This document shows, one piece after another, positions 18,464-22,997 of a stretch of DNA of 64,000 nucleotides. The DNA lies in NCBI RefSeq assembly GCF_025685685.1, contig NZ_JAGSYH010000002.1:1040768-1104767 (forward strand). The letters are read 5' to 3'. The position numbers and the translations under genes are program-made. The stretch is from Acidicapsa dinghuensis (GTDB taxonomy: Bacteria; Acidobacteriota; Terriglobia; Terriglobales; Acidobacteriaceae). The notes below the pieces were generated by a model. The model was not told the DNA's origin, did not search any database, and saw nothing but the letters and a program-made list of their open reading frames with translations. How positions within the stretch are numbered: the first letter of the stretch is position 1; each line of letters opens with the position of its first letter.

Positions 18464-20704
18464 ATGCGCTTGTTTGTAGCTGCTGTATCTCTCTTTGCAC
18501 TCACCGCCCAGGCCGCCGACACAGGCCGTCCCCTGCGCGGATACACCGCCGAAACCTCCGCCACCGAAGTCCAGTGGGAACAGAAATTCCGCGAGATTCC
18601 CGACCGCGACCGTCTGCGCGAAAACATGCGCCGCCTCAGCGCACGCCCGCACCACGTCGGCTCGCCCTATGACAAGGACAACGCCGAGTGGCTCCTCGCC
18701 CAGCTCAAATCCTACGGTCTCGACGCCAACATCGAAGAGTTCACCACACTCTTCCCCACTCCCAAGTCACGCCTGCTTGAGCTCGAAGGCCCCAAGCCCT
18801 TCAAAGCCACTCTCCAGGAACCGGTAATCCCCGAAGACCCCACCTCCAATCAGACCTCCGAACAACTACCCACCTACAACGCCTTCTCGCACGACGGCGA
18901 CGTCACCGCCCCGCTCGTCTACGTCAACTACGGCCGCCCCGAAGACTACGAAGTCCTCGATCAGATGGGCGTTTCCGTCAAGGGAGCCATCGTAATCGCC
19001 CGCTACGGCGCAAGCTGGCGCGGCATCAAGCCTAAGGTCGCCGCCGAACACGGCGCAGTCGGCTGCATCATCTACTCCGACCCGCATGACGACGGCTACT
19101 CCCAGGGCGACACCTACCCTGCCGGTCCTACGCGTCCGCCTGAGGGCGTCCAGCGGGGCTCCGTCATGGATATGCCGGTCTATCCCGGCGATCCGCAGAC
19201 CCCCGGCGTTGGAGCGAAGCCGGGTGTGAAGCTCATCCCGCTCGACGAAGTAAAGACCATCACCAAGATCCCCGTCCTGCCCATCTCCTACGCCGACGCG
19301 ACGCCATTTCTCGAGTCGCTCAAGGGACAGACCGTGCCCATTCCCTGGCGCGGCAGCCTGCCACTCACCTATCACTCCGGCCCCAGCATCGTGAAGGCGC
19401 ATCTAGCCCTCGCCTTCAACTGGGACCGCAAGACCCTCTACGATGTCGTCGCCAAAATCCCCGGCAGCAAATATCCCGATCAGTGGGTCATCCGCGGCAA
19501 CCATCATGACGGCTGGGTCAACGGCGCGGAAGACCCAATCTCCGGAGCCAGCCCTGAGCTCGAAGAAGCACGCTCTCTCGGCGAACTCGTCAAGCAGGGC
19601 TGGAAACCCTCCCGCACCATCATCTACTGCTTCTGGGATGGCGAAGAGCCCGCGCTCCTCGGCTCAACCGAGTGGGCTGAGTATCACGCCGATGAGCTGA
19701 AGCAGCACGCCGTCGCCTACTTCAACACCGACGGCAACGGACGCGGCTACTTCGGCGCCGAGGGCTCCCATACCCTTGAGAACTTCGTCAACGACGTCGC
19801 CAAAGACATCAAGGACCCCGAAACCGGCATGTCCGTCTGGAAGCGCGCCCGTCTCGTCGATATCTCCCGCGCCACTCCCAAAGACCGCGCCGAGATTCGC
19901 AGCCGCGCCGACATGCGCATTCCGGCCCTCGGCTCCGGCTCCGACTACACCGTCTTCATCGACCACCTCGGCGTAGCCAGCGTCAACCTCGGCTACGGCG
20001 GCGAAGACACCGGCGGCCAGTACCACTCCATCTACGATGATTTCTACTGGTACACCCACTACTCCGATACCGACTTCAGCTACGGCCGCGCCCTCGCGCA
20101 GACCGCCGGCACCATGATCCTGCGCATGGCTGACGCCGACGTCCTTCCCTTCCAGTTCACCGACCTCGCCGACACCGTCCACATGTACCTGACGCAGCTC
20201 AAGGAGCTCGACACAGAAGAGCGCGATAAAGCCAAAGAGCGCGACAAGGAAATCTCCGAAGGCGTCTACGATGCACTCAAAGACCCCAAGAAGACCCTAG
20301 TCCCACCGCCCACGGAAACCATCCCACCCTACCTCAACTTCGCCCCGCTCGAGCAGGCCTCCGACGACCTGACCGAAGCCGCGCAAGCCTACGACAAGGC
20401 CTACAGCGCAGCCGCCGCAGCCAACCCCGACCCCAAACTCAATGAAGACCTCATGCGCAGCGAGCGCCTGCTCACCGATAGCCGCGGCCTTCCCAACCGC
20501 CCGTGGTTCGAGCACCTGCTCTACGCCCCCGGTTTCTACACCGGCTATGGCGTCAAAACCATCCCCGGCGTCCGCGAAGCCATCGAGCAGAAGCAATGGT
20601 CCGAAGCCAACGAGCAGATCAACCACGTCTCCGAAGCCCTGGAGCACGAGGTAGACCTGCTAAAACAAGCCACCAAGCTCCTGCCCGCCAAACCCAGCGA
20701 ATAG
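18464..20704 (+). CDS. M28 metallopeptidase, glutamate carboxypeptidase II-like, exported
   Basis: A 746-residue exopeptidase of the GCPII/PSMA group. A signal peptide (MRLFVAAVSLFALTAQAA) is followed by a PA domain insert (LVYVNYGRPEDYEVLD, IVIARYG, GCIIYSDP). The M28 zinc-binding core has GNHHDGWVNGAEDPISGAS, FWDGEEPALLGSTEW, YFNTDGNG and YHSIYDDFYW. A C-terminal transferrin-receptor-like dimerisation domain completes it. It probably trims C-terminal or N-terminal residues from peptides in the periplasm. The ATG at 18464 is chosen because the longer frame from 18356 adds 36 non-signal residues. It ends in a strong terminator at 20756. Confidence 0.9.
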   Translation: MRLFVAAVSLFALTAQAADTGRPLRGYTAETSATEVQWEQKFREIPDRDRLRENMRRLSARPHHVGSPYDKDNAEWLLAQLKSYGLDANIEEFTTLFPTPKSRLLELEGPKPFKATLQEPVIPEDPTSNQTSEQLPTYNAFSHDGDVTAPLVYVNYGRPEDYEVLDQMGVSVKGAIVIARYGASWRGIKPKVAAEHGAVGCIIYSDPHDDGYSQGDTYPAGPTRPPEGVQRGSVMDMPVYPGDPQTPGVGAKPGVKLIPLDEVKTITKIPVLPISYADATPFLESLKGQTVPIPWRGSLPLTYHSGPSIVKAHLALAFNWDRKTLYDVVAKIPGSKYPDQWVIRGNHHDGWVNGAEDPISGASPELEEARSLGELVKQGWKPSRTIIYCFWDGEEPALLGSTEWAEYHADELKQHAVAYFNTDGNGRGYFGAEGSHTLENFVNDVAKDIKDPETGMSVWKRARLVDISRATPKDRAEIRSRADMRIPALGSGSDYTVFIDHLGVASVNLGYGGEDTGGQYHSIYDDFYWYTHYSDTDFSYGRALAQTAGTMILRMADADVLPFQFTDLADTVHMYLTQLKELDTEERDKAKERDKEISEGVYDALKDPKKTLVPPPTETIPPYLNFAPLEQASDDLTEAAQAYDKAYSAAAAANPDPKLNEDLMRSERLLTDSRGLPNRPWFEHLLYAPGFYTGYGVKTIPGVREAIEQKQWSEANEQINHVSEALEHEVDLLKQATKLLPAKPSE

Positions 20705-20755
20705 AAGAACAGTATCTAGCTCGACCTTTTGAAACAAACTCACAAAGAACTCATG

Positions 20756-20792
20756 GCCGGGCACAAGCCGAATCTATGCCCGGCTATTTTTT
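20756..20792 (+). terminator. intrinsic terminator of the M28 gene
   Basis: GCCGGGCA (20756-20763) pairs with TGCCCGGC (20777-20784) and is followed by TATTTTTT. The loop is 13 bases. It separates the peptidase gene from the defence gene that starts at 20864. Confidence 0.8.
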
Positions 20793-20863
20793 ACTTTTCC
20801 ATCTAGATCCACTGTTCTCATTCTTCTGGACGGAAAACTATCTCCAGCTTATTCTTGTGAGTC

Positions 20864-22369
20864 ATGGCACCTATCAAACCTGTTCAAGTTGTCGGCCCAA
20901 TCGAGCCGTTTGAGTTTTGTGAATCTGAATTGGTGATTGGATTTACTTATGCGGTCGGAACAAACTATAGACCAGTCCAAGAATTTATCATCGAGATACT
21001 CAAGCAGTATCACTATAAGCCAAATGTAATACGCGTCAGCGATCTTATAGGCAATCTCTCGCGCTTGGATCTGGATGACAAATCTGAGGTCGGCAGAGTT
21101 TCTACGCTGATGGACGCTGGAAATAGTCTCTGCAGAACATCCGGCCACCGTGATATTTGGGCGCTTGCTTCAATAGTAGAGATCAATAAAAAACGTGGCA
21201 GCAACGCAGCTGATCAAAAACCTCTTGAGAGAACTGCCCATCTTATATTTTCCTTAAAGAGGCCCGAGGAAGTCTCGACTCTTCGGAAGGTGTATGCTGC
21301 AGGTTTTTTTGTTATTGGCGTATTCGCTACCGAAACTGAACGGCTGGAGTATTTAATCGATGGCAATGCGCCAAAGATATCTGCGAGAGAGTTGATCAAA
21401 CGTGATGAAGATGAACTCGCAGATGATGATGGCCAAAAAACAAGCAAAACATTTCAATTAGCAGACGTATTTGTACAACTGAAAAATCAGGCATATAGAG
21501 CTGAACTCTCTCGGTTTTTTTCGCTCATTTTTTCTGATCCGTACCAGACACCTACACAACACGAACAGGCTATGTTTCTAGCCTATGCCTCTTCATTGCG
21601 TTCGGGACAACTCGGGCGACAAGTAGGCGCGGTAATCACATCAAAAACAGGCGATGTGCTTGCGGTTGGATGCAATGACGTTCCGAAACCTGGCGGAGGC
21701 CTTTACTGGCCAGGGCAAGATGATAATCGTGATCACGTCCTCGGCGAAGATACAAATGACAAAAGAAAGGCACAGATCATCGATCAGTTGATTTCGAAGC
21801 TCCCTGAAAATTTAGAGGAATCTCTTGCGGTGGCTCTTCGAAAGAGCTTCCGTGAAGTCTTGGACATCACAGAATACGGACGAGCTGTACATGCCGAAAT
21901 GGATGCACTCCTTACCTGTGCAAGATCGGGAGTCAGTCCCCAAGGTGCTCTTTTATACACAACAACATTTCCTTGCCACAATTGTGCTCGACACATCATC
22001 GCAGCAGGAATCGAGCGCGTTATTTACATTGAACCTTATGCAAAGAGTAAGGCTCAGGAACTCCATGAAGATGCTATCGTAGTGGAGGAGAAAGCTGAAA
22101 AGAGCGCACGAGGACCCAAAAGAAAACTGCCTTTTACGCATTTTGTAGGGATTGGTCCGCGTCGATATTTTGATCTCTTTTCTTTGAACCAAAGCACCGG
22201 TCATGAGCTCGAACGAAAAGAGAACGGGAAGAAGTTCAATATCCAAACGGTGAAGTCGTGGCCGCGAATTCCACTTTCGCCATATACCTACATGGAACGA
22301 GAGAGAATGGCAATAGAGGTACTGTCTTCAATTCCGAAACAACTGGACATGTTCGAGCCAGAAGAGTAA
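20864..22369 (+). CDS. anti-phage dCTP/dCMP deaminase (AvcD/DCD-like)
   Basis: This 501-residue protein has the architecture of anti-phage deoxycytidine-nucleotide deaminases. The N-terminal P-loop NTPase-like domain starts VIGFTYAVGTNYRPVQEFI; its loop lacks the usual Walker Lys, and the domain includes HLIFSLKRPEEVSTLRKVY. The C-terminal zinc deaminase domain has CNDVPKPGGGLYWPGQDD, VHAEMDAL (His343, Glu345) and FPCHNCARHI (Cys371, Cys374). Known AvcD/DCD proteins destroy dCTP or dCMP on infection and starve phage of nucleotides. The gene is clearly richer in A/T than its neighbours, a sign of transfer. The start ATG has only a weak ribosome binding site. Only about 70 bases separate it from the upstream terminator. 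Alternatively it could be a housekeeping-type dCMP deaminase, but the NTPase fusion argues against that. Confidence 0.85.
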   Translation: MAPIKPVQVVGPIEPFEFCESELVIGFTYAVGTNYRPVQEFIIEILKQYHYKPNVIRVSDLIGNLSRLDLDDKSEVGRVSTLMDAGNSLCRTSGHRDIWALASIVEINKKRGSNAADQKPLERTAHLIFSLKRPEEVSTLRKVYAAGFFVIGVFATETERLEYLIDGNAPKISARELIKRDEDELADDDGQKTSKTFQLADVFVQLKNQAYRAELSRFFSLIFSDPYQTPTQHEQAMFLAYASSLRSGQLGRQVGAVITSKTGDVLAVGCNDVPKPGGGLYWPGQDDNRDHVLGEDTNDKRKAQIIDQLISKLPENLEESLAVALRKSFREVLDITEYGRAVHAEMDALLTCARSGVSPQGALLYTTTFPCHNCARHIIAAGIERVIYIEPYAKSKAQELHEDAIVVEEKAEKSARGPKRKLPFTHFVGIGPRRYFDLFSLNQSTGHELERKENGKKFNIQTVKSWPRIPLSPYTYMERERMAIEVLSSIPKQLDMFEPEE

Positions 22370-22396
22370 GAATCGCGGGCAACACTGGAGGATTTT

Positions 22397-22594
22397 ATGA
22401 ACGTCGTAAAAAACAAGAGCACAGATAATGGGCGACAGTTCTGGTCGCACGTTGAATCCATTGTGCGGCAGGTCCGTAATCTTGATACGACGTCCGATAC
22501 AGATAATGCCGAAGAAAGGCGATGTGCCGAGAGTGATTCCAACATGAATCATGAGCCGGTACATCCTGCGCATTGCGACAACTCGGAGGATTAG
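22397..22594 (+). CDS. small unknown ORF downstream of the dCTP deaminase
   Basis: A 65-residue frame starting MNVVKNKSTDNGRQFWSHVE, 27 bases after the deaminase stop. CTGGAGGATTTT before the ATG is a strong ribosome binding site. The first 30 residues look like a helical coding sequence; the rest is polar and rich in Asp, Glu, Asn and His, with no recognisable domain. Position and A/T-rich composition suggest it travels with the deaminase. It may be a regulator, accessory protein or decayed remnant. I do not recognise the family. Confidence 0.5.
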   Translation: MNVVKNKSTDNGRQFWSHVESIVRQVRNLDTTSDTDNAEERRCAESDSNMNHEPVHPAHCDNSED

Positions 22595-22997
22595 ATTGCG
22601 CAGGCTTATTCGGTGCAAGATTTGCAAGATGCAACCGAATTTGTCTTTGAGATCTGGCGGCTCATAGCCGAGCGCATGACTTTGGTCATTTCGGTGACCT
22701 TTTAGCTTTCCTCTGCCTGCCACAGAAACCATCCCAGACCGCTTCCTCCTCCCCGGCAATCACGCCTACAGGGCATTTCCTCAAACCAGCCCGTCATCTG
22801 TATTGAATTGAACTCCCGCGAAAAAATTTATCGCCGTGGACGACCCGGCACGGATTTCGGGCCTACAATCCCCTGTAGCCATCGGCCACTTCTGCGGACG
22901 GCAGCCAAGCCTGTCTGCAGGATCTGCTCACCGCTTGAGCGAGAAGACTGAATAAGACCTGGGCCCCCGTCAAATCAATCTGACCAGGAGATTCCCC
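22595..22997. other. gap after the defence island, no gene seen
   Basis: No supported gene or terminator was seen in these 403 bases. A 143-residue frame on the other strand (22328-22759) overlaps the small ORF and has no ribosome binding site or known domain. Base composition returns to GC-rich within the gap, so one boundary of the A/T-rich island probably lies here. No attachment-site repeat was noticed. Confidence 0.4.

Follow-up and report, generated by a model that had tools for sequence, protein, structure and literature searches.

The open reading frame (ORF) at 20864–22369 on the + strand of the window, i.e., of the whole 64,000-nt stretch of DNA that was analysed, encodes, on the evidence of its sequence, a member of the anti-phage dCTP deaminase family (DCD/AvcD) with an intact zinc site. 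With slightly better than even confidence, we read it as the larger part of a horizontally acquired two-gene anti-phage module for nucleotide depletion, in which the DCD is followed by the gene of a small dedicated regulator. That this small protein acts as a switch in the clade to which the window's deaminase belongs is suggested by its linkage to the deaminase gene, the frequent overlap of the two genes, the selection acting on it, a natural fusion of the two proteins, and the analogy with the Sofic–AS1 pair.

The deaminase and its origin

The ORF is intact, starts with ATG and comprises 501 codons. Its product reaches 444.8 bits with the NCBIfam model NF041025 (equivalog cut-off 400), over profile positions 1–433 of 437, and 529 bits (4e-159) with the PADLOC model dCTPase, over residues 20–488, which bears out the preliminary description of a likely anti-phage dCTP deaminase; both models presumably correspond to the DCD of Tal et al. 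2022. An AlphaFold (AF2) model of the protein was built from a 46-row alignment, A5 (pLDDT 88.2, pTM 0.88), and Foldseek searches with this model returned dCMP deaminases and adenylate-kinase-related proteins, together with a weak match of low TM-score to the human dCTP deaminase CDADC1 (E 2.5e-4). By these matches, a kinase-like, adenylate-kinase-related N-terminal domain (residues about 22–205, 20927–21478; Foldseek matches 3lw7 and 3h0k, limits estimated) precedes a zinc-dependent deaminase domain (residues about 231–439, 21554–22180, the end being estimated). The latter contains the dCMP/cytidine deaminase zinc region of Pfam, PF00383, at residues 231–389 (2.9e-16). The HAE zinc/catalytic motif (residues 343–345, 21890–21898) is invariant in the 46 rows of A5, as are the P, C, H and C of the PCHNC zinc motif (residues 370–374, 21971–21985), N373 being nearly so. 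The fusion of an NTPase-like N-terminus to a zinc deaminase with intact HAE and PCxxC motifs, which had been noticed earlier, is thereby confirmed by Foldseek and by the alignment. HAE and PCHxC are also invariant across a 14-row DCD alignment, in which the window deaminase is 32–44% identical to members from its phylum, Vibrio, E. coli and Klebsiella. It had been remarked as well that the P-loop is without its usual Lys. The Lys is indeed absent, but this is nothing unusual in the family, in that the canonical column is without Lys in 14 of the 14 aligned DCD members; in four of them (L032 and L045–L047) a Lys is found shifted one residue later.

A Lys-bearing P-loop does occur in other proteins of the same order and class. 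These are compact fused proteins of ~335 aa that combine a kinase-like part with a dCMP deaminase carrying HGEENA and PCLxC motifs, and they were read in four loci, three from the same order (L008, 1210–2220 on the – strand; L010, 1501–2496; L013, 1198–2205 on the – strand) and one from the class (L005, 1495–2496). Split matches resembling them are present in 12 of the 14 listed genomes of family f2, to which the three loci of the order belong (L005 is from f4). It is conceivable that the anti-phage DCD derives from a housekeeping type such as this ~335-aa fused kinase–dCMP deaminase. The existence of such relatives lends something to the idea that the window protein is itself a housekeeping dCMP deaminase for dTTP synthesis, which we nevertheless hold to be very improbable, because the protein scores above the anti-phage equivalog cut-off and aligns over its full length with anti-phage DCDs, and because its gene is patchily distributed and AT-rich. 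Housekeeping dCMP deaminases without the NTPase domain, which the preliminary description had named as the matches that would speak against it, are far weaker and confined to the deaminase domain. ComEB, for instance, reaches 58.8 bits where its cut-off is 219, within that domain only, and the sequence-related structures in the PDB, which are dCMP deaminases and, more remotely, cytosine deaminases, likewise match over the deaminase domain only.

The gene had been called A/T-rich and a product of transfer, and both statements gain support from its surroundings and its distribution. Its GC is 0.456 and its GC3 0.409, below the 29 other long ORFs of the window, which have a mean GC of 0.593 (sd 0.022, minimum 0.544) and a mean GC3 of 0.689 (sd 0.067). 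With the window deaminase as query, its own gene is the sole match in its genome; a match above the family cut-off occurs in one of the 15 genomes of the genus (the window's), and DCD matches at E ≤ 1e-40 in 13 of 396 genomes of the phylum, the window's included, with up to three candidates scored per genome. Searches with flanking genes in the 15 genomes of the genus gave no orthologous flanks, and hence no empty site was seen; the long matches of the upstream peptidase there are 56–64% identical, much as an additional peptidase copy in the same genome is, and one gene downstream of the deaminase is present in two of the 15. Horizontal gain fits both the AT-richness and the patchy distribution, and the deaminase gene was probably acquired in this way.

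A small gene at the deaminase stop

In the regions downstream of the homologues, a small ORF recurs at the deaminase stop. The loci compared came from genome and viral contigs, among which the window protein alone found none, and alignment A1 gave the best 80 of 505 and 67, respectively. A profile HMM of the small partner was iterated, its second version being built without the window, and was run on the fetched loci, 1.28 Mb in total, in six-frame translation. Of the DCD loci, 144 extend more than 250 nt downstream, and 62 of these have a match on the + strand between –80 and +150 nt from the stop, the profile having been trained on the same loci that were later counted with it, and 15 loci whose deaminase was not delimited by motif, at least five of them with a partner match, being left out. 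In a FastTree phylogeny of 150 DCDs, the partner accompanies 61 of the 90 members of the window's clade (support 0.97), versus 2 of the 60 outside it. Among loci with delimited deaminases, the profile built without the window matched off this position only in L040, further downstream, and in L085, inside the deaminase frame; the profile that included the window gave one such match, on the opposite strand (L074, E 0.017). Partner-bearing hosts include Photorhabdus, Pseudomonas, Acinetobacter, Cohnella, Planctomycetota, Myxococcota and Acidobacteriota.

The small peptides contain WPxW in 59 of the 67 family members selected by script, and the partners of L034, L127 and L128 depart from the WPxWK core with WTDSK, WSASK and WSDSK. 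Two of these loci, L034 and L127, whose small ORFs are divergent, are like the window among the 29 clade DCDs without a profile match, as is L085, with its fused partner; the 29 also include three rows in which little sequence follows the deaminase, and 11 that are neighbours in the tree and proved on inspection to be without the ORF. With 29 of 90 clade DCDs lacking a match and these 11 lacking the ORF, the partner is not obligatory.

When starts are chosen by script, the start codon precedes the DCD gene's end in 38 of 58 partners, and the overlap is 4 nt in 17 of them. All 34 close partner pairs computed, drawn from seven groups, give a dN/dS below 1 (range 0.03–0.78, one saturated); 28 of these pairs are within Photorhabdus and not independent, and a pair with L103 was left out. 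As judged from its sequences, the small ORF of the clade evolves as a protein-coding gene. The deaminase frame of Methylocucumis oryzae (L085) continues into a WPNWKK tail, i.e., a natural C-terminal fusion, and in a model of this protein the tail residues 501–510 have a pLDDT of 85 and the WPNW block one of 70. A chromosomal pair of DCD and partner occurs in 12 of 5426 E. coli genomes; two of these E. coli loci were looked at more closely, and both place the pair near tRNA-Sec, next to an integrase and a phage-polarity-suppression gene, with the 57-aa product of the small gene annotated as hypothetical.

The attachment of the small gene to DCDs was followed in whole genomes, namely those of 43 of the 80 genome loci, which were hand-picked, mostly partner-bearing, and in 26 cases had supplied rows of the profile. 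Of these genomes, 35 have a partner match at E ≤ 0.1 and eight have none, and each of the 35 has one whose start falls between –37 and +78 nt relative to the end of the DCD, the end of a tblastn match having served as reference in three cases. Eight further matches were listed across the 43 genomes, including four weak ones and one in G471. In Pyxidicoccus fallax (G464, locus L078) both matches lie behind a DCD; the second DCD is broken in frame in the assembly and is followed by an intact partner ORF (L235, G464:C7, 2020–3851). The second match of G452 adjoins a DCD remnant, and the partner of G461 is an orphan, no DCD being recognised in its 4.3-kb contig. In the 396 genomes of the phylum, where at most 16 candidates were scored per genome, partner matches at E ≤ 0.001 were obtained in five, two of which had supplied rows of alignment A2; all five are among the 13 DCD carriers and all matches stand beside the DCD. 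No partner was found in the 383 sampled genomes of the phylum without a DCD, under the same bound of 16 candidates. As far as searched, the small gene of the clade is found almost only beside DCDs.

Other features that vary among the homologues were considered along the way. Residues separating partner-bearing from partner-less DCDs are few and confounded by descent. A subset of DCDs (L093, L099, L108, L111, L113, L122, L123 and L125) is lengthened at the N-terminus by ~100 aa that include an STGTIxFQG motif. As a replacement for the partner, this extension was rejected, as five of the 13 DCDs with the extension motif also have the partner and eight do not. The conserved DNA upstream of several partner-less DCDs, considered as a separate element, actually lies in an N-terminal extension of the deaminase frame. 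Outside the window's clade, enterobacterial plasmid DCDs have an ORF of ~60 aa just upstream, on the same side as AvcI in Vibrio, that ends in SKSLKW or SKKITW (L045, 4688–4873; L046, 705–887; L047, 2348–2530).

The small ORF of the window

The probable small partner ORF of the window (22397–22594, + strand, 65 aa) begins 27 nt past the deaminase stop, in the position and on the strand seen in relatives, and a GGAGG ribosome-binding site (22387–22391), read from the sequence, stands 5 nt before its ATG. With the HMM built without the window, it ranks first among the 1654 six-frame fragments of the window, at 11.3 bits and E 0.026. It retains the family's FWxxV half at the N-terminus (KNKSTDNGRQFWSHVESIVRQV), and the WPxWK core is missing, NLDTTSD being found at that place. 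It is absent from the whole-genome listing obtained with the family profile at E ≤ 10, and the phylum search at E ≤ 0.001 gave no partner match in the window's own genome. The same genome holds, on another contig, a different small ORF with SWPAW (E 0.029; G000:C12:814304–814393; L195, L239). A terminator-like hairpin (22684–22699, + strand) lies 3′ of the small ORF, from a scan that found two such hairpins where 2.5 are expected by chance. Taken together, these features make the small ORF a probable, diverged member of the family, possibly one in decay. Because of its E value, the missing WPxWK and its absence from the whole-genome listing, the case for a second gene in the window comes mainly from position, and that absence also lowers our confidence in the reading as a two-gene module.

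These features speak at the same time for a DCD that works as a single gene, a reading we consider unlikely, if not negligibly so. The downstream ORF of the window would then be a chance frame or a dead remnant, and regulation would be intrinsic to the deaminase, e.g., through nucleotide sensing by the kinase-like domain, which agrees with the fact that PADLOC and NCBIfam match the deaminase only, and with the 11 neighbouring partner-less rows of the tree. It is opposed by the position, strand, ribosome-binding site and FWSxV half of the ORF, all of which fit the partner family, by its first rank among the window's fragments, and by the partner being clearly a real gene in the clade.

Control of the deaminase and known systems

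An AvcI-like regulatory RNA had also been considered in the preliminary description, which put only about 70 bases upstream of the gene. The gap is in fact 159 nt long (20705–20863), the M28 peptidase gene ending at 20704, and the evidence points to the small downstream protein gene rather than to an RNA. The fold of the gap is more stable than 200 of 200 shuffles (z –3.74) and contains a hairpin of 11 pairs followed by a U-run (20753–20793, + strand), which most likely terminates transcription of the M28 peptidase gene upstream; the terminator scan omits it because its loop exceeds the length allowed there. Rfam at gathering thresholds gave no match in the window, and no AvcI-like family in 14 DCD loci. 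With a fold dominated by this hairpin and U-run and no match in Rfam, the gap seems an unlikely seat for an upstream regulatory RNA.

As published, AvcI lies upstream of avcD (PMC9455884) and is a labile RNA that inhibits AvcD, with about 171 nt needed and a transcript of about 280 nt (PMC10511110). A type III system of this kind in the window, with an RNA in the 159-nt gap or downstream inhibiting the deaminase, would follow that published arrangement and would suit the stability of the fold. We think it quite improbable, given that both lengths of AvcI exceed the gap, that the chief stem of the gap resembles a peptidase terminator, that Rfam is silent in the window, and that the conserved element in the clade is a downstream protein-coding ORF.

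In the two-gene module that we favour, the small protein of the clade would be co-produced with the deaminase (their genes frequently overlap), would bind it and keep it quiet, and would so take the part played by the AvcI RNA in the AvcID system of Vibrio. Once a labile inhibitor was lost in phage infection, the deaminase would act on dCTP and dCMP, and their deamination would starve phage DNA synthesis, as extrapolated from the published work on AvcD (PMC10511110). The window's partner, diverged and without the WPxWK core, might still function as a variant or be decaying. As a regulator, the small protein would most likely be an inhibitor that replaces the AvcI RNA, inhibition being favoured over activation.

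Two observations sit awkwardly with such a two-gene inhibitor. One is the permanent fusion in L085, which is difficult to reconcile with a labile antitoxin and whose WPNW motif, moreover, is modelled with a confidence of only about 70. The other concerns uncharacterised Pseudomonas phage proteins, the N-terminal parts of which contain an F..HL.ECADEV.TWP.YK-like stretch that resembles the partner core (L197, 2890–4170, orf44 of D3; L198, 2737–4230, gp120 of KPP10); a likeness of motif in unrelated proteins counts against the two-gene reading too. Both could be accommodated if the small protein were an activator or an infection sensor, i.e., a subunit that the deaminase needs, or a recogniser of a phage product. 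The natural fusion and the tight linkage would suit a structural subunit, and the motif in D3 and KPP10 could mean mimicry or a shared target. We hold this explanation, like that of a single gene, to be unlikely but not negligible, as AvcD and homologues expressed in E. coli are described as toxic and protective (PMC9455884), and as some relatives are without the partner, which is hence not needed in general.

To our knowledge, control of the off state of nucleotide-depletion deaminases is known only for AvcID, where an RNA exerts it. With a small protein conserved next to a large branch of DCDs, there is a direct handle on how the deaminase is held inactive. Searches of Pfam, NCBIfam and PADLOC with nine small partners brought no convincing match, and several are matched by PHROG 38465, which has no assigned function (best 1.7e-11). 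No description of the partner was recognised among the papers listed in the literature searches; the founding papers of 2022 may mention it. Tentatively, and with somewhat less than even confidence, we propose that a large DCD branch spread over many phyla consists of two-gene systems under the control of a WPxWK protein of 50–80 residues, apparently undescribed, that replaces the AvcI RNA, and that the window represents an Acidobacteriota-type example whose switch has diverged beyond the core. If this is true, one toxin family is served both by an RNA antitoxin and by a protein partner, and for annotators many DCD loci would have to be treated as two-gene systems.

The window's deaminase agrees with NF041025 and the PADLOC dCTPase in its full-length homology above the cut-off, its kinase-like domain joined to a zinc deaminase, and its HAE and PCxxC motifs, whereas these libraries match the deaminase only and about two thirds of the window's clade add the small downstream gene. 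With AvcID of Vibrio it shares the deaminase family, whose member AvcD deaminates dC nucleotides, and, on the favoured reading, the pairing of a toxin with a small adjacent regulator, a trigger by loss of that regulator being plausible (PMC10511110); the AvcID regulator, however, is an upstream RNA, and here the conserved neighbour is protein-coding and downstream, with only 159 nt upstream. A parallel in gene arrangement is AS1, a protein of 47 aa that is encoded just downstream of the anti-phage toxin Sofic and counteracts it, although Sofic is a Fic AMPylase (PMC12249575).
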